Shown piece by piece: positions 2 through 28,409 of a stretch of 31,073 nucleotides of DNA. The DNA is from a virus. Below the pieces are notes generated by a model. That model was not told where the DNA came from. It did no database searches and saw only the letters and a program-made list of their open reading frames with translations. Both the position numbers and the translations under genes were made by a program. Where the stretch lies: positions 1 through 31,073 of IMG/VR virus record IMGVR_UViG_3300042465_006312. One strand, written 5' to 3'. Position 1 is the first letter of the stretch. The number at the start of each line of letters is the position of its first letter.

Positions 2-1660
2 TCAGCAGCTGCATTAATTGTAGATGGTAAAGTTGTATCGGCTCAAGAAGAAGAACGATTTACAGGTATAAAGCACGACCAACGATTTCCTACAAATTCC
101 ATTAAGTGGATTCTAAAACAAAATAAATTAAAGATTAACCAAATAGATAAAATTGTTTGGTACGAAGACCCTAAGAAAAAATACGAAAGATTTAAAGAAC
201 AATATTTTACTTATTTTCCAAAAACAATTGGATTAACTAAAAAACTTTGGAATTGGAAAAAGAATAATAACATTGAAGATATTATTCGTACACAATTAGG
301 ATATAAAGGTTCAATAGAATATGTGGAACATCACATATCACATTTAGCATATTCATTTTATACATCACCATTTGAAAACGCACATTTATTTTCGGTAGAT
401 GGTGTTGGTGAAGATGAAACGGCAATATTAGGATTAGGATTAAAAGGAAAATACATCCAACCATTAGAGAGAAATTTCTTCCCACATTCATTAGGATTAT
501 TATACGCATCAGTTACGGCATTCTTAGGATTCAAACCTAATAGTGGTGAATACAAAGTAATGGGATTAGTAGCATACGGTAATCAAAAAGATTTATATAG
601 AGAACAATTTGAAAAGATTGCTAAACTCAATGGTAATACTTTAGAATTGGATTTAAAATACTTTTCATTTCATTATTCAGAGAAAGGGATGTTTACTTCT
701 AAAATGGCGGAGTTATTTAATATAGCACCAAGAACACCTGAAAGTGAGTTAGAGCCCATTTATATGGATATTGCATTTTCATTACAAGCACATTACGAAA
801 GATTATTTTTCCAAATGTTAAATAATTTCTACGAACATTACCCACAAGATAATTTATGTTTAAGTGGTGGGTGTGCATACAATGGATTGGCAAATGGTAA
901 GATAACAATAAATACAAAATATAAGAATGTATATGTACCACCTGCTCCATCGGATGCAGGTAGTGCTATTGGATGTGCATTATATGTTTACTATAAATCA
1001 CCAAACTATAAAAGAGTAGATAATTCAAATCCATTCTTAGGACCTTCATATGGTGCAGCTGATTTTATATCTGCAATTGCTAATTTAGTTCCCAATGGTA
1101 AAGTACAACGATTTGAAAATTATAATCCATTAATAGAAAAAGTAGCGGGATTAATTAACGATGGTGCAATTATAGGTTGGTTTCAAGATGGTAGTGAATT
1201 TGGACAAAGAGCATTAGGACATCGTTCTATATTAGCTAATCCAACAATTAAAGATATTAAACCAAAGGTAAATAGAGTAATTAAAAAGAGAGAAGGATTT
1301 AGACCTTTTGCACCAATGGTTACGGCAGATGATGCAAATAAATACTTTGAAATGTTAGGACAAGAAGTTCCTTATATGAATCAGGTATTTAAAGTTAAAG
1401 ATAGTTTTATTGCAGGTCTACCATCTATTACTCACATTGATGGTACTGCTAGAGTTCAGACAGTTCGTTCTACTTTCAATCCACATATTTTTACACTACT
1501 TAAGAAATTTGAAAAATTAAGTGGTTATCCTATCTTACTTAATACCTCATTCAATCTTAGAGGTCGAACAATGGTATTAGAACCAGAAACTGCAATTAAA
1601 ACATTTTACTCATGTGAAATGGATTACTTAGTATTGGGAAATTATTTAATATCAAAATAA
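2..1660 (+). CDS. Carbamoyltransferase, NodU/CmcH/TobZ family (5' partial)
   Basis: The family transfers a carbamoyl group from carbamoyl phosphate, via a carbamoyl-adenylate, to a hydroxyl of a sugar, antibiotic or modified base. The frame is open from base 2, so the start is off-window. The first codons read SAAALIVDGKVVSAQEEERF, the family's N-terminal signature, so only about 10-15 residues are missing. Further motifs are EHHISHLA (326-349, metal-binding His cluster), FSVDGVGEDE, LSGGCAYNGLANGKI, APSDAGSAIGCAL, then the C-terminal domain with GQRALGHRSILANP, GFRPFAPMV, DGTARVQTV and PILLNTSFNLRG. About 552 residues are visible, the normal two-domain length. The GTG at 323 is an internal Val codon, not the start. 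The gene lies directly upstream of a tail fibre, so a glycan on the virion or host is possible. Viral relatives acting on 5-hydroxymethylcytosine in DNA are also known. Family is confident; substrate is unknown. Confidence 0.93.
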   Translation, partial: SAAALIVDGKVVSAQEEERFTGIKHDQRFPTNSIKWILKQNKLKINQIDKIVWYEDPKKKYERFKEQYFTYFPKTIGLTKKLWNWKKNNNIEDIIRTQLGYKGSIEYVEHHISHLAYSFYTSPFENAHLFSVDGVGEDETAILGLGLKGKYIQPLERNFFPHSLGLLYASVTAFLGFKPNSGEYKVMGLVAYGNQKDLYREQFEKIAKLNGNTLELDLKYFSFHYSEKGMFTSKMAELFNIAPRTPESELEPIYMDIAFSLQAHYERLFFQMLNNFYEHYPQDNLCLSGGCAYNGLANGKITINTKYKNVYVPPAPSDAGSAIGCALYVYYKSPNYKRVDNSNPFLGPSYGAADFISAIANLVPNGKVQRFENYNPLIEKVAGLINDGAIIGWFQDGSEFGQRALGHRSILANPTIKDIKPKVNRVIKKREGFRPFAPMVTADDANKYFEMLGQEVPYMNQVFKVKDSFIAGLPSITHIDGTARVQTVRSTFNPHIFTLLKKFEKLSGYPILLNTSFNLRGRTMVLEPETAIKTFYSCEMDYLVLGNYLISK

Positions 1661-1721: not shown

Positions 1722-4700
1722 ATGGCAGGATTAACAGTAGACCAATTATCAGCATCATTCGACGCAAGATTGGATAACAACGCACAAAATTTAATATTAT
1801 TTAGTGGTTCATTTGAACAAAAACTAATACCAATAAGTTCTAGTAATGTAAATTTAATACAAGATGTATCTGAATTAACTGCAGATTTATCTAATCTCAG
1901 TTCAAGTGTACGTATGCAATCAGCATCGTTTAATTCAAGAATAAATGTATTAAAAACTAATAGTGGTGGACTTGAAGCGGCTACATTTAATGCATACACT
2001 AGTTCAACTAATACTAAATTAAGTAATTTAGAATCATATACTAGTTCATATGCAACTACCGGTTCAAACACATTTAGTGGTGCACAAACTATAAATTCAG
2101 ATTTAACAGTTGCCGGTAAAATTACTGCTAGACTTTATCATACTGAATTAGTTTCTTCATCAATTGTATACGAAAGTGGTTCAACTAAATTTGGTAATAC
2201 ATCGGATGATGTGCATGCATTCACTGGGTCAGTTTCTATAACTGGTAGTTTAAACACTAATCATATACATATAAGTTCAGGTTCTAATACAGAACTATTA
2301 ATTAGTAATACAGGTGTGGGCTCTCAATATCGTATTCAAGCCGGCGTATCTGGTCATCTTGCTATCCGAGATATTAACACCAATTCTACGATTTTGAGAA
2401 TTGGTACGGGTTCAGTTGATTTCTTAGATTCAATCGAAGTAAGTCATAATATAACTGCAAGTTTTGGGAAGTTTATAGATGTAACCCTACTTGGTGATTT
2501 AACGGCGAGTAACTTTACTGGTACAGCTGCATCAATTGCAGTTTGGGGAGCATCAAACTCATTAACTAGTAGCAACTATATTAATTTAACAAATGGCAAT
2601 CAAACATTAGCAGTTGGTACATTAGGCTACACAGAGGGTGCACCGGAAGCATTGTTGATAACACAGATAGCAGATTCAATAAACATCGCCACATTTAAAG
2701 GAAACGTATATGATTATGCACAATTAAATGTTACAAATGAAAATAGTAGTACGGCTTCTTCTACTGATATTGTAGCTACTGCAGATAATGGTACTGAAAC
2801 CAATATGTATGTAAATTTGGGTATCAATTCATCTACATATACAAAAGGTGAAGTGGGATTTGAAAATGATGGTTATTTAATTAATGCAGGTGAAGATTTA
2901 TACATTGGATCATTAAGTACTGGTTCACATGGACATGTGCATTTATTTGGTGGTGGACATTGGCAATCATCATCTATTTCAATCTACCAAGATGGTAAGA
3001 TTGGTATTAATACTGACAAATTAAATCCACTAGCAGATACTATTCCAACGGCAGGATATGCAGTTGAAATTAGTGGTAGTGTTAAATTTAATAATAGTTT
3101 AAATGTAACTGGTTCGGTATATGTTTCGGAGTTAGTGCAGGCAACAACTATACAAGGAACTGGTTCAATGTATTTGCAACCTGATGTTAATGATACAAGA
3201 AAAATTCAAATCTACAATACCGGTGCTAGTGATACACATATTAAAGCAAGTGGTGGATTAACTTTCTTAGGTGATGATACTAACTATGTAAAAATAGATG
3301 ATAGTTTACAAACCATAACTATCGATTCAACTAATGGTGTAAATATTGATACATCCGTAAACATAACCGGTTCATTAATTGTAAGTAGTAGTTCCGATGC
3401 ATTATTTTTAAGTGGTGGACAAATTGTTAGACTTGGTAGAGCTTCATTATATACTGGAACCGGTGCATATGATGGTAATGTATTTTTACAAGGATTACAA
3501 ACTAAATTATATGCAGATAAAGTTGTTTTAGAAGGTACGTATGGTACAGAAATAATCGGTGATACAACTATAACTGGTTCTTTATTGGTTAGTTCATCTA
3601 ACGCAGTTGATGTAAATGTAATTGGTAAGATGAATGTTACCGGTTCATTAGAAGTATCTTCATCTAATAGTTTAACTTTTTATACTCCATCATTTAATTT
3701 ATACAATCCAGACCCAAGTGGAGCTTCTTCATTCCAATTAAATAAATATAGTACCTCATTAGGTGGTTATTATAACTTTACTATTAGAAATAATGGTGAT
3801 TCAGCTAATGGTGTTTGGCTTAGTAATGGTGACCAACCTCTTAAAATAATGACATATGATGTTATTACATTGGGTGGACCTAATGGTGATAATTGTAATA
3901 GAATACAATTAAACGGACCTCTTAGTGTATCTGGTTCTACTACTTTAGGTAATGATGTAAAGGTAATAGGTAATACAACTATATCCGGTTCATTAATAGT
4001 TAGTTCATCAGCAGCAGTTGATGTAAATGTAATTGGTGCAGTAAATATAACCGGTTCACTAAAAGTATCTGATTCAATTTTAGCAACAGGTACTGATTAT
4101 CCACTTTCCATTTGGCATGGTACCGGTACTACAAAAGAATACAATGTAGCAATAGGACATAGTACATTAGCATCTAATACAACTGGAAATGGAAATGTTG
4201 CATTGGGATGGACTGCATTGGTTCGTAATACAACCGGACAGGGTGTGACTGCTATGGGGTCTACGGCTGGATATTATAATACTACCGGAGATAGAGCTAC
4301 TTATATTGGTAATGCAGCCGGATTTAATAATATTACGGGTGATGATAACACATTTTTAGGTTATCAAGCGGGATATGGTATATCAACTGGTGCGTATAAT
4401 ACTAGTGTTGGTTTGAATTCATTATTTAACAACAATGGTTCTAATAATGCAGCGTTAGGAATGAATGCAGGAGCATATGCTAGTGGCTCATCTAACTCAA
4501 ACGTTTATATAGGAAATGCAGCTGGACCTTCGGTTGATACAACTGAAAGTAATAAATTGTATATAAACAATAATAATGGTAGTCCATTAATTGGAGGTGA
4601 TTTTGCAGAAAAAACTGTAACTATTAGTGGCTCACTTACATTAGTACCACAAGGAGCACCATCTTCACCGGCAAGTGGTTCACTTTACTTTAGTAGTGGT

Positions 4701-4754
4701 GATTCTCATTTCTACGGATGGAATGGTGTACAATGGAAACAATTGGATAACTAA
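1722..4754 (+). CDS. Modular tail fibre protein with YadA-head-like repeats
   Basis: This 1010-residue, Ser/Thr/Gly/Asn-rich, Cys-free protein is most likely a trimeric tail fibre. The N-terminal ~130 residues look helical (QLSASFDARLDN, DLSNLSSSVRMQSASF), suggesting attachment or coiled coil. A long stretch of short beta modules follows, repeatedly using variants of ITGSLxVSSS. Residues ~808-935 hold about eight units of 16-17 residues of the type NxTxIGNAAGxNxTTG, like YadA-type head repeats. The tail ends in SGSLYFSSGDSHFYGWNG, an end-cap form I associate with phage fibres. No S74 chaperone domain is visible. The start is supported by AAGGAA 9 nt upstream, and a rho-independent terminator follows. 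Its receptor is unknown. The fibre role is inferred from repeats, composition and context. Confidence 0.85.
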   Translation: MAGLTVDQLSASFDARLDNNAQNLILFSGSFEQKLIPISSSNVNLIQDVSELTADLSNLSSSVRMQSASFNSRINVLKTNSGGLEAATFNAYTSSTNTKLSNLESYTSSYATTGSNTFSGAQTINSDLTVAGKITARLYHTELVSSSIVYESGSTKFGNTSDDVHAFTGSVSITGSLNTNHIHISSGSNTELLISNTGVGSQYRIQAGVSGHLAIRDINTNSTILRIGTGSVDFLDSIEVSHNITASFGKFIDVTLLGDLTASNFTGTAASIAVWGASNSLTSSNYINLTNGNQTLAVGTLGYTEGAPEALLITQIADSINIATFKGNVYDYAQLNVTNENSSTASSTDIVATADNGTETNMYVNLGINSSTYTKGEVGFENDGYLINAGEDLYIGSLSTGSHGHVHLFGGGHWQSSSISIYQDGKIGINTDKLNPLADTIPTAGYAVEISGSVKFNNSLNVTGSVYVSELVQATTIQGTGSMYLQPDVNDTRKIQIYNTGASDTHIKASGGLTFLGDDTNYVKIDDSLQTITIDSTNGVNIDTSVNITGSLIVSSSSDALFLSGGQIVRLGRASLYTGTGAYDGNVFLQGLQTKLYADKVVLEGTYGTEIIGDTTITGSLLVSSSNAVDVNVIGKMNVTGSLEVSSSNSLTFYTPSFNLYNPDPSGASSFQLNKYSTSLGGYYNFTIRNNGDSANGVWLSNGDQPLKIMTYDVITLGGPNGDNCNRIQLNGPLSVSGSTTLGNDVKVIGNTTISGSLIVSSSAAVDVNVIGAVNITGSLKVSDSILATGTDYPLSIWHGTGTTKEYNVAIGHSTLASNTTGNGNVALGWTALVRNTTGQGVTAMGSTAGYYNTTGDRATYIGNAAGFNNITGDDNTFLGYQAGYGISTGAYNTSVGLNSLFNNNGSNNAALGMNAGAYASGSSNSNVYIGNAAGPSVDTTESNKLYINNNNGSPLIGGDFAEKTVTISGSLTLVPQGAPSSPASGSLYFSSGDSHFYGWNGVQWKQLDN
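3564..3659 (+). repeat. 96-bp intragenic direct repeat, copy 1
   Basis: This segment of the fibre gene is about four-fifths identical to 3975-4070. It encodes two consecutive SGSLxVSSS-type beta modules separated by AVDVNVIG, with an 18-base block (gatgtaaatgtaattggt) identical in both copies. Confidence 0.85.
3975..4070 (+). repeat. 96-bp intragenic direct repeat, copy 2
   Basis: Second copy of the 3564-3659 repeat, 411 bp downstream and in the same reading frame. Recombination between the copies would delete or duplicate a whole number of codons (137), so fibre length could change without a frameshift. Confidence 0.85.
4143..4526 (+). repeat. Eight tandem YadA-head-like protein repeats
   Basis: Units of 16-17 residues follow one another: NVAIGHSTLASNTTG, NVALGWTALVRNTTG, VTAMGSTAGYYNTTG, ATYIGNAAGFNNITG, NTFLGYQAGYGISTG, NTSVGLNSLFNNNG, NAALGMNAGAYASG and a final NVYIGNAAG. 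The IG/LG-xx-AG core and the TTG linker fit a left-handed beta-roll, as in trimeric adhesin heads. At DNA level the units have diverged, so this is an old expansion. Confidence 0.8.
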
Positions 4755-8244: not shown

Positions 8245-10260
8245 ATGGCTCTTAATCCAATAGATAAAAGCTGGTCTACAAATAAAAAGGATATAAAATA
8301 TACCAATAGAGATTTTAGTTCTTTAAGACAAGCATTAATAGAATTTACTAAAACATATTTTAGTAATACATACAATGATTTTAGTGAAGCTTCACCTGGT
8401 ATGATGTTCATTGAACAGGCTTCATATGTAGGGGATGTACTTTCGTATTATACCGATGCTCAATTAAAAGAATCATTTATTAACTTAGCGGGAAATAAAA
8501 ATAATATTTATCAATTAGCACAAAACTTAGGATATAAACCTAAAATTTCATCGCCGGCTGCAACTACATTAACATTGTATCAAACAGTAATCGCTAAAGA
8601 TGGTGAACCAGATGAGAGATATTATTTAAAAATAAATGAAGGAATGGTTGTAAATTCAAACGTATCAGCAGACGTACAATTTATAACAACCGATATAGTT
8701 GATTTTGCAGACCCACATAACCGAGATATTACAATATTTCAAACTGAAAATACTACTGGAAATGTGTTACTATATTTAGTAACCAAAACAGTAACGGCTA
8801 TAAGTGCAACTCGTTATACCCAAACATTTACTTTAGGTGAATTTAAACCAAATCCAATAGTAAACCTTACTAGTACGAATTTTATTAAAATAGAAAAAGT
8901 AGTAGATTCAAATTCAAATATTTACTATGAAGTTCCATATTTGGCACAAGAATTAATTTATATAAAATCACCTAATTCAGAATACGCAGAACCCACACTT
9001 TCACATAGTCCTTCGGCACCACAATATATTTTAAAACTTCAGAAAACCAATAGAAGATTTACAAGTAGATTAATAGATGAAAAAAACATTGAATTAAGGT
9101 TTGGAAGTGGGAATGCTTCTACACCGGATGAGTTACTAATACCAAATACAAAAAATGTTGGACTTGGATTAAGTAATTCAATTAATAGAATGGGTGAATC
9201 ATTTGATCCGTCAAACTTTTTAAAAACAAATACATATGGTATTGCACCTGCAAATACAACATTAACAGTTACGTATTTAGCCGGTGGTGGATTGGTATCA
9301 AATGTACCTAGTGGTGATTTAACACAATTAAGTTTTGTATCTTTTAATGAAGATATACTTTCAATTGCAGCTATAGATTTACCTACGTATCAACAAAGCA
9401 GAAACTCATTAGGTGTTGAAAATTTACAACCAGCAAGTGGTGGTAGAGGTAACGAAACATTAGAAGAAATTAGAGAAAATGCAATTGCAAACTTTGGTGC
9501 ACAAAATAGAGCAGTAACTAAAAAGGATTATGAAGTTAGAACATTGGCAATGGATCCTATGTTTGGTAGTATTGCAAAAGCATATGTAGAACAAGATGGT
9601 AACATTGATACTGGGGCGGCACAACAATTACTAAGAAATCCATCGGTTAAAAAAGATTTTATTGGGCTGGTTAAAAATTTACAAAAAGCTTCCGATAATG
9701 AAATTATAGAAGCCTTAGATGTATTTCTAAAAACAAAACAAACATTTGCAGTAGAAAGTAATCCATTCGCAATTAATTTGTATTTATTAGGATACGATAG
9801 TAATGGCAATCTAAGTATATTAAATTCTACAATTAAACAAAATCTAAAAACATATTTAGAAGAATTTAGATTAATGACAGATGCGGTTAATATAATAGAT
9901 GGGTATGTGATTAACATAGGTGTAAACTTTGATATAACTGTATTTTCTAATTATAATAAAAGAGAAGTTGTATTAAATTGTACACAAGCAATTGCCAATT
10001 ATTTCGATATTACAAAATGGAAAATGTCTCAACCAATTAATATAAGTGAATTAGAATTAGAAATTGCAAACGTAAGTGGGGTTTCATCTGTTCCAAAGGT
10101 TGAAATTTTAAATTTGGTAGATGCAAGTGGTACAACATATTCACAATACTCATATAACATACAAGAAGCAACTAGAAACAAAATTGTATATCCATCATTA
10201 GACCCTTCTATATTTGAATTAAAGTATCCGGGTAAAGATATTAAAGGGAGAGCATTATAA
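8245..10260 (+). CDS. gp6: Baseplate wedge protein, gp6 (baseplate J-like)
   Basis: At 671 residues it is close to T4 gp6 (about 660). N-terminal motifs (YTNRDFSSLRQALIEF, SEASPGMMFIEQASYVGD, YYTDAQLKESFI) are typical of gp6 and distant P2 gpJ. The core baseplate-J block is at ~398-445 (GGRGNETLEEIRENA, AQNRAVTKKDYEVRTLAMDP). Gp6 dimerises to form the inner wedge ring around the hub and moves in the sheath-contraction trigger. It lies immediately after gp25 and overlaps the next gene through TAATG. No truncation or frameshift is seen. Confidence 0.95.
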   Translation: MALNPIDKSWSTNKKDIKYTNRDFSSLRQALIEFTKTYFSNTYNDFSEASPGMMFIEQASYVGDVLSYYTDAQLKESFINLAGNKNNIYQLAQNLGYKPKISSPAATTLTLYQTVIAKDGEPDERYYLKINEGMVVNSNVSADVQFITTDIVDFADPHNRDITIFQTENTTGNVLLYLVTKTVTAISATRYTQTFTLGEFKPNPIVNLTSTNFIKIEKVVDSNSNIYYEVPYLAQELIYIKSPNSEYAEPTLSHSPSAPQYILKLQKTNRRFTSRLIDEKNIELRFGSGNASTPDELLIPNTKNVGLGLSNSINRMGESFDPSNFLKTNTYGIAPANTTLTVTYLAGGGLVSNVPSGDLTQLSFVSFNEDILSIAAIDLPTYQQSRNSLGVENLQPASGGRGNETLEEIRENAIANFGAQNRAVTKKDYEVRTLAMDPMFGSIAKAYVEQDGNIDTGAAQQLLRNPSVKKDFIGLVKNLQKASDNEIIEALDVFLKTKQTFAVESNPFAINLYLLGYDSNGNLSILNSTIKQNLKTYLEEFRLMTDAVNIIDGYVINIGVNFDITVFSNYNKREVVLNCTQAIANYFDITKWKMSQPINISELELEIANVSGVSSVPKVEILNLVDASGTTYSQYSYNIQEATRNKIVYPSLDPSIFELKYPGKDIKGRAL

Positions 10261-13706: not shown

Positions 13707-16700
13707 ATGGCAATACGACACAATAGACAATATAGCAAGCCGGTGGATAACTGGGATTATTTATATAATCCAATGGGAGAGTTATTGAATGATGGTAGCC
13801 TTTCAGGTGGAGGTGCTTTCGGTGGTGGAGGAAATAGTGGTGGTGGATTTGGTGGTGATGTTGGAATGCCGGTGCCTGTACCTAAATCAACCACCGGGAG
13901 TGATATAAAATTAAACTTATCCAATATAAGTGAATTTAAAAATCAAATTACATTCAATATACAAAATAATGTATATCAAGAAGGTGCTACTGTTTTAATT
14001 GATTCAAATACAATTAACGATACACTTTTAATTAAACCAATTGTAAATGATAATTTTAAATCAAAAAATTATTCTGCATTAGTAAAGACCGTAATTCCAA
14101 AATATATTCGTACAAGTGAATGGGTAACTGATTATGGTGGTAATTTTGGATTTAATGCTGGTAGTTCTATGTTTGGTGGGATGGGTGGAAATTCAGGATT
14201 TGGGGGGATGGGGTATTATGATGGTTGGAATGGTGGTGGTATTAATACACGTTTAGTAGAAAAAACCGAAAGTGTAAATATTCCTGGTATTAAAATACAA
14301 CAATTTAATGGTGATAATGTTTATCAAGGTAGTACGGATTATGAATTACCATTGACCACCGATTTACAATTTGATTTAGATAAAGTTGCGGTAAAAGTAG
14401 TAACAAATACAATTACACAAGCTATTCAATTTATCTCAAATTACAAAAACGATATATTAAATAATGAAGTAAATATTAAAGTTACCTCAAGCGATGTACC
14501 AAATGGAGTAGTTAATACAAAAATACAAAATGAAGTAAGGTTTGCAAATTCCAATGGGGTAGCGGGTCCTGTTAAAATAGAACTTAGTGGATTTGATAAA
14601 TTTTTATTTAAAAGTATTAGATGGCAATATACTGACAAATTTAGTGAAAATTCTGATTTAAATTTAGGTGATTTCAATGTTGTAAATGATACGGTATTTA
14701 ATATTGATGCATCGGTTTTTAATAAAAACATTTTAATCTTAGTAGAAGTAGAACCAGATAATGCAGATTATCCAGTATTAAAATTAACTACTAATACAAT
14801 ACAACAAAGTATTTTAGAATCAATATATGCATCTACAACCGATTCTAAATTAATTACAATTGATTTTGATTTAAAAAATACAGATTTTGTTAAAGTAACT
14901 ACACCGTATAAACAATATAATGTAGCAGTAAGTGCGACAGGTTTACTTCGTACAAAAATAGATTTAGATTTAAAGAAAGATTTTTTAAATAATGAGGGTG
15001 CATTTAAAATAGCATTAGTTCCAAGTTCCAATTTATATGGCGATGGAAATGTGGAATATGTTATTGTTACCTTATCTAAAATATTTGATACACCGATAAT
15101 TGATAAAATTGATTATCCTACCGATGTATACATACCCTCATATACATTTGGTGATGTTAATTTTAAAGTAACATTTGAGTCCAATTTAGCAACTACTGTA
15201 TTAGTATATCATTCTAAAGAAGATGCTAATACTGCGTTAGGAAAGTTTTCTAATAAAGATTTTATTAGTTTAAACTATAAAGATTTAAAAAATAGAAAAA
15301 TAATTAATTCACCATTAGATTTATTAATTATTCCGTATAATGGAAATGTTAAAGGTGAAATAGAAAGAATTACTATTAATTTTGAAGATGAACAAATATA
15401 TGTTTCTACCCAAGATTTAAAAACTAGTTTGTTTGATGCAATTGCCGTTAATTTAAACTTATCATTAGGAAACGAACAAAAATATTTATCTCACTTAGCT
15501 TCATTTGATATTGATGACAAAGAAATATTAGTTTCTAATTGGGATATAGATTACAGTACATTTACCAAATTCAAAAAAGATAGTGTAGGTAATAGTATTC
15601 CAGATGGTGAAATAAGTAAAAGTATTGTATTAAAATTATATGAAGCATTACCTGTAAATATAAATAAGAACGATACATTATGGATATCTCGTTTAATGTC
15701 GTTACCTATTATCCAAAGAGTAGTAGTAACAAGTAAACCAGAAACAAACGCTTTACCATTAAGAGCACCAAACTTTAATATAGAAGTTGATTATGTAAAA
15801 GGTCAATCAACTATATACGAATCATACGATGATTTAATATTAAGTGGTAGTGAATCATCTCAGCAAATTGTAGATAAATTACTTTCAACTAATTTTGTAG
15901 AAACAAGTAGAATTAATATAGATTATTCTAATTTTTCTAAATTTGTAAAATATAGTAGTGTAGTTGAAAGATTAGCAAACTTTAAATACAAAAAAGAATT
16001 AGCAGAATACTATGAAGATAGAATTGGTTATTTAAACGAGCAAACCAAAAGTATTAATGTAATACAAGATATAACAAAGTATTCTGGAAAATTATCTACA
16101 TTAGTAAGTGGCTTTGATGGGTGGGAAACCAGTTTAGTATCTGGTAGTTTGGTATTTACCGCAGATAGTGCTTCTTATGAAACATTTCCAGGGGGTAGGT
16201 TTAATTTACTAAGTGGTTCATCTGCATTTTCAAATTATGGTTCAACCTATCTTACAAATCCAAATACAACACTTTCTAATTGGTATTTAGGAACAATGGA
16301 TTCTGCATCAGTTTATGATACTATGAATCTAAATGCACTTAAAAACAATATACCACAATTTATAAGTGAAGATGAAGATAACTCAGATTATTTGTTATTT
16401 TTAGATATGGTTGGTAATCATTTTGATATTATTTGGAGTTATATTAAAGGTATGACAGACCAACGTATGATTACCGAAAATAATTCATATGGTATTAATG
16501 ATGAATTGCTTTATAACTATTTAGAATCATTTAGTTGGAATGCTAAGAATTTAAATTCAAATAAAAACCTATGGGGGTATTTGTTTGGGCACGATGGTGA
16601 TGGTGGTAATATGTTAAATGATGCCGATGGGTATACTATTACTCCAGAACAATATACAAAAACAATTTGGAGAAGAATTGCAAATAACTTACCTTATTTA

Positions 16701-23612: not shown

Positions 23613-26600
23613 ATGAATAAATTAAAAAGAATTTATCACATTGCAGACATTCACATTAGAAATCTAAAAAGACACCAGGAATATAGAGAGGTATTTAATA
23701 GATTGTTTGATGATATAAAAAGTAAGGGAGTTGAAGATTCCCTTATTTATTTAGCGGGAGACTTAGCTCACGCAAAATTAGAAATGTCTCCGGAACTTCT
23801 TAATGAAATTAATTATTTTCTTAAGAAGTGTTGTGAATTATGTCCTACCATATTGATAGCGGGAAACCACGATTGTAATTTAAACAACGCTGGTAGATTA
23901 GATGTATTAACTCCAATTGTAGAAGCATTAGATTTACCTAACTTAACTTATTTAAGAAATACTCAAAGTTATACATATGGGGGTGTAAGATTTGATATGT
24001 TCAGTATATTTGATGATAAAGAAAATTGGAAGTTCGAACCATTAACATCAGATACAACTAATATTGCATTATTTCACGGACCAATTTTAGATGCTACTAC
24101 TGATGTGGGGTATCATATTTCTTCTAGACATTTTACAACTGAAATGTTTGATGGTTATCAGTTAGCCCTATTAGGTGATATTCATAAACGACAAACTATG
24201 ATTTCTCCGAAAGGATGCAAAGTAGTTTATCCTGGTTCTTTAATTCAGCAAAATCATGGTGAAGCATTAGACAAACACGGATATGCTATTTGGAGTATGG
24301 AAGACTTATCAGTTGAATACGTAGATATTCCAAATGATTATGGTTATTATACTCTTCATGTTGAGAATGGTATTGTACCAGATGTAACTGATATGCCGAT
24401 AAAACCTAGACTTAGAGTATTTGTATCTAAAACAGATGCCGCAGATATTAAGCGAGTTACTACTGAAATTAAAAAGAAATATAAAGTAGATGAGTTCACT
24501 ATTACTCGTACCGATACTTTAGCTCGTTTAAGGACTGGTACTAAAGATGGTAAATTAAATGTAGGAAATGTAAATGACCCTCAATATCAAGCCGGTCTTA
24601 TTAAAGATTACTTAGGTAGAAACTATTTATTAGATAATGAAACATTAGGTAAGATTGAGGATTTAAACAATAAACTAAATAAAAGATTAAACGATGATGA
24701 CTTAGTTAAGAACATAGCGTGGAAACCAATTAGATTTGAGTTTAATAACATGTTCTCATATGGTGAGAATAATATTGTTAACTTTGAAAATATGAAAGGG
24801 TTAATGGGTGTGTTCGCTCCAAACGCAAGTGGTAAATCATCTTTATTTGATGCATTATCATTTTGTATATTTGATAAGAGTAGTAGAGCATTCAAAGCAG
24901 CTAACATTCTAAACAATCGTAAAACATCATTTAGTTGTAAGTTAGAATTTGATATTAATGAAGAAAGATTTTTCATTGAGAGAACTGCTAAAACTACAAA
25001 GAAAGGTGATGCTGTTAAATGTGATGTAAACTTTTGGAAAATAGAGGGTGGTGAAATTGTAAACTTAAATGGTGATGAACGTAGAGGAACAGATAAAGTA
25101 ATCGAATCTTATTTAGGAAAGTATGAAGATTTTGTATTAACTGCATTATCGTTACAGGGAAACAATTCTTTATTCATTGATAAATCACAATCAGAAAGAA
25201 AGGATTTATTAGCTCAGTTTATGGGTATTAATGTATTCGATAAGTTATATGATTTAGCAAGTGAAGATATTAAAGAAGTTCAGGTCTTATTAAGAAACTT
25301 TAAGAGAACCGATTTTACATCTGAATTAGCAACAGCAGAAAATAAATTAGAAACCTTAAAGGATGAATATGAGGAATTTGAAATTGAGAAAGAAGGTTAC
25401 GAAGATAGACAAGATGAATTGAACGAATACATAACTAATTTATCAGCTCAATTAGTTCCTATTGATGGTAATTTAGATATTGATAAACTACAAACTAAAC
25501 AATCAACTTTACAATCGCAAACAACAGGTTCTAATACAACTATCGAAACCAAATCTGTAAGTATTGGTAAGATAACCGATGTAATGGTGGATTTAACAAA
25601 TGCTATTAAAAGTAAAGAACAATTTAATGGCATTGATATAGAAATTGTATATTCTAATTATCAACAACAACAAAAGAATTTAATTGAAGCTATAAAAATT
25701 TATGATATTGCAAAAGGTCATTTATCTGCAGCAGAAGAAAAGATTTCACATTTGGATAAACATGAATATGACCCTAATTGTAAATTTTGTTTGGATAATG
25801 TATTTGTTAAAAATGCAATGGATGCAAAAAATACATTACCTGAATTAAAAGAAGCAGTTAAACACGCAACAATTAATGCTACAAGCATTCAACAAACTTT
25901 AGATTTGTTTGAAGGGATAGAAGAACAATATTCTCAATTTGAGGATTACAAATCTAAATTAGAAAAGGGTAAAGCACTTCATAAAACTACACAATTAGAA
26001 TTAAGTGGAATAATTACTCAAAAAGAATTATATGAAGCACAATTAACAGCGGTAGAATTAGATATAGAAAAATATCACGCGAATGAAACTACTATTCAAA
26101 ACAATGATTCTTTAGAGGAACAAATTGATATTAAGAAGCAAGAATTAGCAGGTCTTAGTAAAGACCTAAGAGAGATAGCATCTAGATTATTAGAAATGAA
26201 TGGACAAATAGTTCAAACACAATCTTATATTACATCAGTTACGGATAAGATGACTGAAGCAAAGGGGTTAGAAGAACAATTCCAAATTTATGAATATTAC
26301 TTAGATGCAGTTAAACGAGATGGGGTATCATATGAATTAATTGCAAAGGCTCTACCTGTGATAGAAGGTGAGGTTAACAACATCTTACAACAAATTGTAG
26401 AGTTTGGTATCGTCTTTGATATGAGTGGCAAAAATGTGAACGCTAGGATTGTTTATGAGGATCAGCATTGGCCATTGGAAATGTGTAGTGGTATGGAGAA
26501 GTTTGTTAGTGGGTTAGCAATTAGAGTTGCACTTATTAATGTATGTAATTTACCTCGTCCAAATTTTTTAGTAGTAGATGAAGGATTTGGCACATTAGAT

Positions 26601-26759
26601 TCTGATAACTTGCAATCTATCTTTATGATGTTTGATTATTTGAAAACACAATTTGATTTCATTAATATTATTTCTCACTTAGATGCAATGCGAGATATCG
26701 TTGATACATTAGTTGAAATTAAAAAAGTAGATGGTTTCTCTCAAATACAATATAAATGA
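23613..26759 (+). CDS. Single-chain Mre11-Rad50 (SbcD-SbcC; gp47-gp46 fusion)
   Basis: A 1048-residue fusion of the exonuclease subunits that resect DNA ends for recombination and join-copy replication. The Mre11/SbcD half (~1-340) has all five phosphoesterase motifs: ADIH (11-14), GD (49-50), GNHD (84-87), FHG (154-156) and GDIH (188-191). The Rad50/SbcC half has Walker A APNASGKSS (402-410), a coiled coil broken by the zinc hook DPNCKFC (C723, C726), signature CSGMEKFVSG (~958-967), Walker B NFLVVDE (984-990), D-loop TLDSD and H-loop His1022. T4 splits these functions into gp47 (339 aa) and gp46 (560 aa). No frameshift or internal stop is visible, so the fusion looks genuine. The stop TGA overlaps the next ATG (ATGA). 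Confidence 0.96.
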   Translation: MNKLKRIYHIADIHIRNLKRHQEYREVFNRLFDDIKSKGVEDSLIYLAGDLAHAKLEMSPELLNEINYFLKKCCELCPTILIAGNHDCNLNNAGRLDVLTPIVEALDLPNLTYLRNTQSYTYGGVRFDMFSIFDDKENWKFEPLTSDTTNIALFHGPILDATTDVGYHISSRHFTTEMFDGYQLALLGDIHKRQTMISPKGCKVVYPGSLIQQNHGEALDKHGYAIWSMEDLSVEYVDIPNDYGYYTLHVENGIVPDVTDMPIKPRLRVFVSKTDAADIKRVTTEIKKKYKVDEFTITRTDTLARLRTGTKDGKLNVGNVNDPQYQAGLIKDYLGRNYLLDNETLGKIEDLNNKLNKRLNDDDLVKNIAWKPIRFEFNNMFSYGENNIVNFENMKGLMGVFAPNASGKSSLFDALSFCIFDKSSRAFKAANILNNRKTSFSCKLEFDINEERFFIERTAKTTKKGDAVKCDVNFWKIEGGEIVNLNGDERRGTDKVIESYLGKYEDFVLTALSLQGNNSLFIDKSQSERKDLLAQFMGINVFDKLYDLASEDIKEVQVLLRNFKRTDFTSELATAENKLETLKDEYEEFEIEKEGYEDRQDELNEYITNLSAQLVPIDGNLDIDKLQTKQSTLQSQTTGSNTTIETKSVSIGKITDVMVDLTNAIKSKEQFNGIDIEIVYSNYQQQQKNLIEAIKIYDIAKGHLSAAEEKISHLDKHEYDPNCKFCLDNVFVKNAMDAKNTLPELKEAVKHATINATSIQQTLDLFEGIEEQYSQFEDYKSKLEKGKALHKTTQLELSGIITQKELYEAQLTAVELDIEKYHANETTIQNNDSLEEQIDIKKQELAGLSKDLREIASRLLEMNGQIVQTQSYITSVTDKMTEAKGLEEQFQIYEYYLDAVKRDGVSYELIAKALPVIEGEVNNILQQIVEFGIVFDMSGKNVNARIVYEDQHWPLEMCSGMEKFVSGLAIRVALINVCNLPRPNFLVVDEGFGTLDSDNLQSIFMMFDYLKTQFDFINIISHLDAMRDIVDTLVEIKKVDGFSQIQYK

Positions 26760-27898
26760 TAAAATATTACCTATACGATAATATAGAATTAGCAGAGATG
26801 TTTGCATTTAAGTATAATTATGCAGGTAATTTGCATATTGATATTGGTGATATAGCATCTGTTTTGGAACAAACGAATTCAATTGAACTATCGGATATTA
26901 TTCTTATTTATAGAAATAGCATTGAATTTATTGAATATGATTTCTTAGAAAAAAATAAAAATAAAAAAATAATAATAGTAGGTGTTTTAGAAAGATTAGA
27001 ATTAAGAAATTCTTTTTATAAAAATTTAATAGATTTAAACATAAATTTTAAAATAGTAGATGCAAATCCATTTTTTAAAGAATGGTTACAGACACTATAC
27101 AATTACAATTATCCATATAAGGTGTATTCTCCAAATTTCTATTTAAACACTTTTAATTTTTCCGAATTTAATAAACATAAATTTACAAACACAAATATAG
27201 ATAGACAATATAGAATTGTAAGTTTAAATAATAAACAAAAAGAATTAAGAGATATAATAACATTTTTATTTGTTAATAATATTAATATTACGGATGATAT
27301 ATTTTATCAATATGTAGGATCTAACAAAGGATTTTCAGAAATAAATTTAGAAATATTTAATAGAGTATTTTTTGAATCTCTAGATAGAAATAAAATAATA
27401 ACTAACGAAACCGATTTTACAAAGTATATTTTGAACAATGATTTTTTTAAAATAGCAAATAAGAATGGTAAGTTTTTTTGGGATAATTGTATAGAAAAGT
27501 TATCGGATGGTTACCTAAATATTTTATTAGAAACAAATGCGCAGTTTGAAGCAACAGAAGTAAACAAAAATTATAGTACGGCTGTATCTGAAAAATTCCT
27601 ATATTCAGTATTAGCAAATACACTTCCTATTTTTATTTTAAATTCAAATATGGATAATTTTTATAATTTCTTTGGTTTAGTAAATAATAATCAAATTAAA
27701 TATAATACAAACAAAGAATTATTAGAATCATTTACTTGTAAAATACAAGAAATAAATACATTATCTTTAAATGATTGTAAAGAATTACATAATTCTAATA
27801 TAAAATCTATAACCTATAATTCACAAACTGCAATATCTTTAATTTCAGACTTAGAAAAAATACATTACGATTATAATTATATTTTTAATAATTGGTAA
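26756..27898 (+). CDS. Putative glycosyltransferase-like phage protein (divergent)
   Basis: 380 residues, very Asn/Ile/Lys/Tyr/Phe-rich, more AT-biased than the flanking genes. RIVSLNNKQKELRDIITFL (~153-171) and NILLET (255-260) with AVSEKF (276-281) and PIFIL (291-295) resemble a phage family that carries sLNrxxRxHR and IvtEtxF...TEKtfKpi...PF blocks and is usually called glycosyltransferase-like. The match is partial: the TEKT block reads SEKF and the Arg/His pattern is degraded, so activity may be altered. The N-terminal ~120 residues look Rossmann-like (KKIIIVGVLERLELRN). It is coupled to the recombinase by ATGA and to the epimerase-like gene by TAATATG. Function is tentative. Confidence 0.55.
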   Translation: MIKYYLYDNIELAEMFAFKYNYAGNLHIDIGDIASVLEQTNSIELSDIILIYRNSIEFIEYDFLEKNKNKKIIIVGVLERLELRNSFYKNLIDLNINFKIVDANPFFKEWLQTLYNYNYPYKVYSPNFYLNTFNFSEFNKHKFTNTNIDRQYRIVSLNNKQKELRDIITFLFVNNINITDDIFYQYVGSNKGFSEINLEIFNRVFFESLDRNKIITNETDFTKYILNNDFFKIANKNGKFFWDNCIEKLSDGYLNILLETNAQFEATEVNKNYSTAVSEKFLYSVLANTLPIFILNSNMDNFYNFFGLVNNNQIKYNTNKELLESFTCKIQEINTLSLNDCKELHNSNIKSITYNSQTAISLISDLEKIHYDYNYIFNNW

Positions 27899-27899
27899 T

Positions 27900-28409
27900 A
27901 TGATAATTGGAAATGGTAATATCGCAAAATCATTGATATCAAAAGATAAAGAAAATATAACATTTTTTGCAGCGGGAGTTAGTGATAGTGGGTGTTCTGA
28001 TACAAACGAATTTGAAAGAGAATTAAATTTGTTAAAACAACAAGATTATAATAAACATTTAGTTTATTTTTCTAATCTTAAAATTTATTATTCAAATGAT
28101 ACATATACTCAGCACAAAAAACGCATGGAAGAATATGTAAAATCAACGTTTAAATCATATACAATAATAAGAATAGAAGTCTGTGATTGGGTTAAAAATC
28201 CAACAACTATTTTAAATGTTTTTAGAAAAAAAATAAAAAATAAAGAACCAATTGAAATTCAAAATACCATAAGATATATTTTAAGTTTAGATGAATTTTT
28301 ATTTTGGATAGATAGAATACCTGTGGGGATATGTAATGAGATGAACATATTGGGTAAACGTATGAATATACAGGAAATTGTAGATAATATAAAAAGAGAA
28401 TATTTATAA
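27900..28409 (+). CDS. Minimal NAD(P)-dependent epimerase/dehydratase-like protein (SDR)
   Basis: 169 residues with the extended-SDR plan in shortened form: a Rossmann turn MIIGNGNIAKSL (GxGxxxxS), a second strand ending in AAGVSDSG, FSNL with Ser58, and the catalytic pair Y69-x3-K73 in TYTQHKKRMEEYV. SYTIIRI and ILNVFRKKIKNK follow, and NILGKRMNIQEIVDNI at the end resembles the usual C-terminal helix. Typical nucleotide-sugar epimerases are ~300 residues, so the substrate domain is much reduced. It may act on a nucleotide sugar or have lost catalysis and kept binding. It follows the glycosyltransferase-like gene by one base and is equally AT-rich, suggesting a two-gene sugar module. SDR call is fair; substrate unknown. 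Confidence 0.68.
   Translation: MIIGNGNIAKSLISKDKENITFFAAGVSDSGCSDTNEFERELNLLKQQDYNKHLVYFSNLKIYYSNDTYTQHKKRMEEYVKSTFKSYTIIRIEVCDWVKNPTTILNVFRKKIKNKEPIEIQNTIRYILSLDEFLFWIDRIPVGICNEMNILGKRMNIQEIVDNIKREYL
28401..28408 (+). promoter_or_regulatory. TATTTATA motif upstream of the second large fibre
   Basis: A perfect TATTTATA overlaps the last codons and stop of the epimerase-like gene and lies 18 nt before the ATG at 28427. The same spot also reads aataaata (28408-28415), a loose match to a T4-type late element, so either could serve as the fibre promoter. Confidence 0.45.

Follow-up and report, generated by a model that had tools for sequence, protein, structure and literature searches.

Gene content and organization of the locus

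The DNA analysed here (hereafter the window) is a 31,073-base IMG/VR record that represents a fragment of a T4-like phage. The baseplate gene at 8245-10260 shares 39-42% identity with its counterparts in a Microcystis phage and in Flavobacterium ‘immuto’ phages. The region of interest lies towards the end of the window and contains the following features:

23613..26759, + strand: fused SbcD-SbcC gene (Mre11-Rad50 type; hereafter SbcDC), matching PHROG 100 over residues 2-302 and PHROG 77 over residues 352-1047; fixed upstream flank of the slot
26756..27898, + strand: P0001, a glycosyltransferase (GT)-like protein of 380 aa, putatively of GT-B type, with an ETN...AVSEK...LPI motif at residues 259-292
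27900..28409, + strand: P0002, a compact SDR of 169 aa with a GNGNIA N-terminus, Tyr69 and Lys73 kept and Asn59 at the catalytic Ser/Thr position
28399..28408, + strand: AATATTTATA element that precedes the fibre ATG and overlaps the last P0002 codons
28427..31072, + strand: large fibre-like gene that runs off the end of the contig; it is the constant flank on the downstream side and a possible target, and 66 distinct contigs have a homologue of its N-terminal region after SbcDC

An earlier, sequence-only reading of this DNA had placed two ORFs between a recombination gene and a fibre gene, and both the ORFs and their placement were confirmed, with the SbcD-SbcC fusion before them and the fibre-like gene after; the latter had no match in Pfam and is named from its architecture only. 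The same reading had called the two genes translationally coupled. The ATG of P0001 overlaps the SbcDC stop codon by four bases (ATGA, 26756-26759) and a single base separates P0001 from P0002, a tight packing that fits coupling but does not prove it. SbcD and SbcC occupy a single ORF of 1048 aa, for which a scan of IMG/VR returned 203 relatives, those kept being mostly full-length. At the opposite end of the window (2-1660), a NodU-type carbamoyltransferase (NCBIfam E value 3.6e-43, below the model's cut-off) adjoins another fibre-like gene (1722-4754) and may be a further sugar-modifying gene.

Recurrence, selection and base composition

The association of the two genes was found to extend beyond the window, as a single further contig (G001; 67.9 kb) carries both in synteny, with 75% identity for P0001 and 79% for P0002. 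A third pair-type contig (L022) carries the start of a P0001-type gene and then ends inside it. No further relatives of P0001 were found in IMG/VR by a scan with exact peptide words, which may miss relatives. Searches with tblastn returned no match for either protein in isolated phages and none for P0002 in plasmids, and neither protein matched the PADLOC models of anti-phage defence. Comparison of the window with G001 gave dN/dS values of 0.31 for P0001 and 0.24 for P0002, against about 0.11 for SbcDC and primase; both genes are under purifying selection and are kept as proteins. The corresponding dS values (0.49 for each of P0001 and P0002, 0.42 for SbcDC and 0.35 for primase) suggest that the pair is about as old as the backbone in these two phages.

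It had also been proposed that the pair is more A/T-rich than its flanks and that this composition reflects recent acquisition or relaxed constraint. The first statement holds, as P0001 and P0002 have the lowest GC content of any gene in the window (0.201 and 0.235; next lowest 0.264), but the bias lies at codon positions 1-2 and arises because the proteins are rich in FYMINK residues (fractions of 0.50 and 0.45, against a mean of 0.34). GC3 was 0.126 for P0001 and 0.141 for P0002, compared to 0.12-0.24 in the other genes of the window, and four-fold-site GC was 0.12 and 0.21, compared to a mean of 0.136. Other cargo of the same slot is equally GC-poor (GC 0.21-0.27), and 23 GT-like genes of related phages have a mean GC of 0.23 and a mean GC3 of 0.13. 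Since the bias follows from amino-acid composition and is common to slot cargo and GT-like genes, it gives no evidence of recent transfer. The second statement is not supported by composition. Recent acquisition was rejected on this ground, as synonymous sites match those of the rest of the window; in addition, the phage members of the P0002 family group on a long branch of their own in its tree and are nested in no bacterial group. The dN/dS values, though higher than in the flanking genes, indicate purifying selection.

P0002 belongs to a compact SDR family of surface-polysaccharide loci

Pfam gave only sub-threshold matches of P0002 to NAD_binding_10 and RmlD. The AlphaFold model of P0002 was modest (pLDDT 66), and a Foldseek search of the PDB with this model found the SDR fold that had been anticipated, with WbmG (E value 6e-4), WbmH, CapF and RmlD as the best matches and a TM score of 0.50 on the query. 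In BFVD the best matches were to epimerases and to an NAD(P)-binding protein of 163 aa from a phage.

A first scan of bacterial genomes with P0002 found no relatives. In the second scan, a consensus sequence for the bacterial family was added to the query alignment, and 286 relatives of this alignment were detected in bacteria, of which 80 were kept; these were mostly from Bacteroidota, with some from Campylobacterota and Pseudomonadota. A profile built from the phage proteins only, without the added consensus, still recovered 79 of the bacterial ORFs, the best with an E value of 4e-29. In the reverse direction the bacterial family profile matched P0002 with an E value of 1.4e-32, and hhalign gave 99.9% over residues 1-140; the same profile also aligned with classical epimerases encoded by G001 (96.5% in hhalign, E value 8e-10). 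The immediate neighbours of the bacterial family genes were frequently glycosyltransferases (GT2 in 28/89, GT group 1, i.e. GT1/4, in 25/89) and more rarely WecB, GDP-mannose dehydratase or methyltransferases, and the bacterial loci that were read directly resemble capsule/LPS clusters. By these profile comparisons, P0002 is assigned to a family of compact SDRs that bacteria encode in surface-polysaccharide loci of the capsule/LPS type. A homologue of P0002 with 54% identity is present in an unrelated phage contig (L004), where the same run of genes includes a GT2 gene and a glycosyltransferase recognized by PHROGs.

The description of P0002 as a shortened SDR therefore stood, whereas the residues named for it (Ser58-Tyr69-Lys73) did so in part. 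All three residues are invariant in the three phage homologues, and the Tyr-Lys pair was borne out by a Y..HK motif in 79/79 bacterial relatives. Ser58, however, aligns one position before the catalytic Ser/Thr; at the catalytic position itself, four residues before the VY/IY tyrosine, Thr was found in 56/56 scorable bacterial relatives and Asn59 in all three phage proteins. The phage proteins are also shorter at the C-terminus by about 60 residues (169 aa against a bacterial median of 229). Given the substitution of Asn for Thr and the missing C-terminal residues, P0002 may be an SDR whose chemistry has changed, or else a protein with a binding function.

P0001 and the GT-like family of phage sugar clusters

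P0001 had no match in Pfam, PHROGs, NCBIfam or a sequence search of solved structures; matches to factor V and sialidase were weak and were rejected as chance. Its AlphaFold model, built from two sequences only, reached a pLDDT of 37, too low for use. The remote likeness of P0001 is to a family of GT-like proteins of 340-500 aa, encoded downstream of the fibre in G001 and related contigs, which carry the motif E[ST]x(4-35)[ST]EKx(6-14)P[FILV] and have no Pfam or PHROG name. This motif, which was defined after P0001 had been seen, occurred in 24/897 ORFs of the fetched loci, every one of which was P0001, the P0001 homologue or a protein of the GT-like family, and in 9/20,000 shuffles of P0001. 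Alignment of P0001 and its homologue with the GT-like family by hhalign scored 26.6, with the motif aligned, whereas 150 column shuffles averaged 15.4 and reached 22.0 at most. The results of hmmsearch with shuffled controls weigh against this: the best domain gave a p of 0.01-0.03, and the C-terminal 240 residues of P0001 alone scored no better than shuffles against this profile (p 0.3-0.7). An earlier profile comparison of P0001 with three GT-like proteins of G001 had found no match, the signal emerging only with the larger family. PF00852 (GT10) matched neither P0001 nor anything in 12 related phage records.

The label ‘glycosyltransferase-like’ thus receives moderate support from the remote profile and the motif, although the protein goes unrecognized by Pfam, PHROGs and NCBIfam. 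We regard P0001 as a likely glycosyltransferase, which would be of GT-B type.

The SbcDC-fibre interval is an exchangeable slot

The interval that holds the pair was surveyed using SbcDC as an anchor. From the 203 relatives found, 80 were fetched, and 66 distinct contigs showed both SbcDC and the start of the fibre; some of these contigs are near-copies, and the counts below are not of independent events. No comparable gene was present in 42 contigs, whilst 20 carried a 2OG/Fe(II) oxygenase, two an SGNH-like ORF and two the GT-like/SDR pair. The 42 contigs without cargo have about 250 bases in the slot, which in the one that was read directly hold a short reverse-strand ORF. The oxygenase-bearing contigs (L013-L031, L041-L058) have one 2OG/Fe(II) oxygenase-like gene in 19 cases and two in one case, and all eight slot oxygenases tested matched PF13640 (PF13640/PF13661 families). 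The slot ORFs read by eye as SGNH-like are on the reverse strand (e.g. L052:11160-11940, minus strand), and the sugar clusters further downstream contain SGNH-like ORFs as well.

Three changes of cargo are needed on the SbcDC tree to explain the three contigs of pair type, which group with sisters that bear an oxygenase; for two of the three, this placement has full support. Slot cargo is incongruent with the SbcDC phylogeny and is exchanged between close relatives. The comparison of the window with L013 illustrates this: the two share 94% DNA identity across SbcDC and 74-89% at the start of the fibre, and between them lie 1,667 and 674 unrelated bases, respectively. In Mel-JY01, an isolated Microcystis phage, the SbcDC gene is directly followed by a DNA methyltransferase gene (L097:15171-16475) and then by what appears by eye to be a related fibre start.

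In most relatives, irrespective of cargo, the fibre ATG is preceded at a distance of about 25-40 nt by ATATTTATA or by its shorter form ATATTTAT. Where cargo is present, its final codons overlap the ATATTTAT element, which therefore marks the downstream edge of the slot. It is perhaps also the fibre's own promoter; AATATTTATA has a single copy in the window, is not enriched and by itself is no more than expected by chance, so that a promoter role is suggested by its conserved place only.

A sugar island downstream of the fibre

The window ends inside the fibre-like gene, and the region beyond it is known from the contigs of relatives. Downstream of the fibre, G001 encodes GT-like proteins, a methyltransferase, galactosyltransferase-LamG fusions, a radical SAM protein, three epimerases, an isomerase of RmlC type and a TPP enzyme in two halves. 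Gene order after the fibre is similar in G004, and the first of the G001 island genes also follows the fibre in relatives with a slot oxygenase.

Two gene arrangements within these clusters were recorded separately. The TPP-dependent enzyme is split in the same order in two phages (L007, i.e. G001, 8949-9581 and 16081-16626; L011, 2886-3527 and 6573-7121), with an E1 alpha half that matches PF00676 and a beta half recognized by eye. In L002:18361-19842 and L007:827-3687, a Glyco_transf_7 N-terminus is fused to a laminin-G domain; the former was tested, and the tandem repeat was read by eye.

Proposed function and alternative explanations

Taken together, our data on balance favour a reading of the pair as sugar-modification cargo in an exchangeable SbcDC-fibre slot of a T4-like lineage, at the margin of a modification island that flanks the fibre, acting on the fibre or virion or on a cell-surface glycan. 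The sugar-type character first proposed for the pair is strongly supported for the SDR-like gene, by its capsule-locus family and fold match, and moderately for the GT-like gene. Under this proposal, P0002 would alter a nucleotide sugar in a reductase- or epimerase-like reaction, perhaps with changed chemistry as the catalytic Ser/Thr is Asn, and P0001 would transfer the product of P0002, or another sugar, to a glycan of the fibre or virion or of the cell surface. Exchange of cargo would then change the modification and leave the backbone unchanged.

The position of the slot suggests the fibre as the target, and the family history of P0002 suggests a surface polysaccharide. A stronger version of the former, that the slot exchanges whole modification systems (sugar transfer with a sugar-nucleotide enzyme, 2OG/Fe(II) hydroxylases or an SGNH-type enzyme), all acting on the adjacent fibre, is in our judgement unlikely; if true, such a slot would let phages vary the chemistry of a receptor-binding fibre with its sequence unchanged. 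The polysaccharide reading would have the pair modify host LPS or capsule during infection, for instance to block adsorption of other phages, with the fibre as a neighbour only through a common host-interaction region. It agrees with the surface-polysaccharide loci of the P0002 family and with the interpretation given to cyanophage polysaccharide clusters (PMC7824862), but close relatives carry in the same place a 2OG/Fe(II) oxygenase, which is no obvious polysaccharide enzyme, and the flanking fibre stays fixed while the cargo changes. We consider this explanation rather improbable, if somewhat less so than the fibre-wide version.

DNA stays a candidate target because of the methyltransferase in the Mel-JY01 slot, and 2OG/Fe(II) oxygenases and glycosyltransferases are used together in base modification (PMC3763556, cited in PMC7824862). 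However, the slot oxygenases match PF13640/PF13661, no TET/JBP-type or known base glycosyltransferase family was matched, and the relatives of P0002 are found in polysaccharide loci, so that a role in base hypermodification seems very unlikely. There is also a small chance that the pair is a moron unrelated to sugars, P0001 being no glycosyltransferase and/or P0002 an inactive SDR remnant. The missing domain matches of P0001, the post hoc definition of its motif, and the Asn and shortened C-terminus of P0002 would fit such a view. Purifying selection on both genes argues against it, as do the invariance of Asn59, Tyr69 and Lys73 across proteins only 54% identical, the rarity of the motif among shuffles and a profile score above all 150 column shuffles.

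Sugar clusters in phage genomes are often treated as host-surface or stuffer genes. The phages described here are close relatives with a near-identical backbone that differ in modification cargo only, and thus constitute a natural experiment; as the cargo alone differs, its target and effect are directly testable.

Comparison with known systems

The suggestion that the pair forms part of an undescribed pathway was too strong, as earlier work describes polysaccharide gene clusters in jumbo phages and T4-like cyanophages (PMC3037559, PMC7824862). Examples of phage virion glycosylation are few and include the mycobacteriophages (cited in PMC12619734). Our literature search, of incomplete coverage, found no useful account of glycosylated tail fibres or hydroxylase-fibre pairs, and no description of a fibre-adjacent slot that swaps sugar enzymes for 2OG oxygenases.

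At the level of the proteins, P0002 shares with the bacterial compact SDR family (Chryseobacterium, Chitinophagaceae, Sulfurovum and others; L109-L188) an IGNG-IA start and the motifs F-A-GVS-S, VYFS, Y..HK and NP-T, whereas the phage proteins differ in their length and in having Asn for the bacterial Thr at the catalytic position. The extended sugar-pathway SDRs (WbmG, WbmH, CapF and RmlD) are the best solved-structure matches of the P0002 model, but P0002 is about half their length and the fold match is weak (TM 0.50 on the query; pLDDT 66). A closer counterpart in length is A0A6J5ME75, the BFVD protein of 163 aa with an NAD(P)-binding domain from an uncultured Caudovirales phage, which is 43% identical to P0002 over the structural alignment. 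P0001 has in common with the GT10 fucosyltransferases (FUT9 and H. pylori FucT, 2nzw) an E-N/T...[ST]EK...P-[VI] motif, although this likeness consists of the motif only, P0001 having no PF00852 match. The polysaccharide/LPS clusters of T4-like cyanophages and jumbo phages combine epimerases, cupin sugar isomerases and several glycosyltransferases, as does G001; in contrast to those clusters, the genes described here are two in number and occupy a swap slot directly upstream of the fibre.
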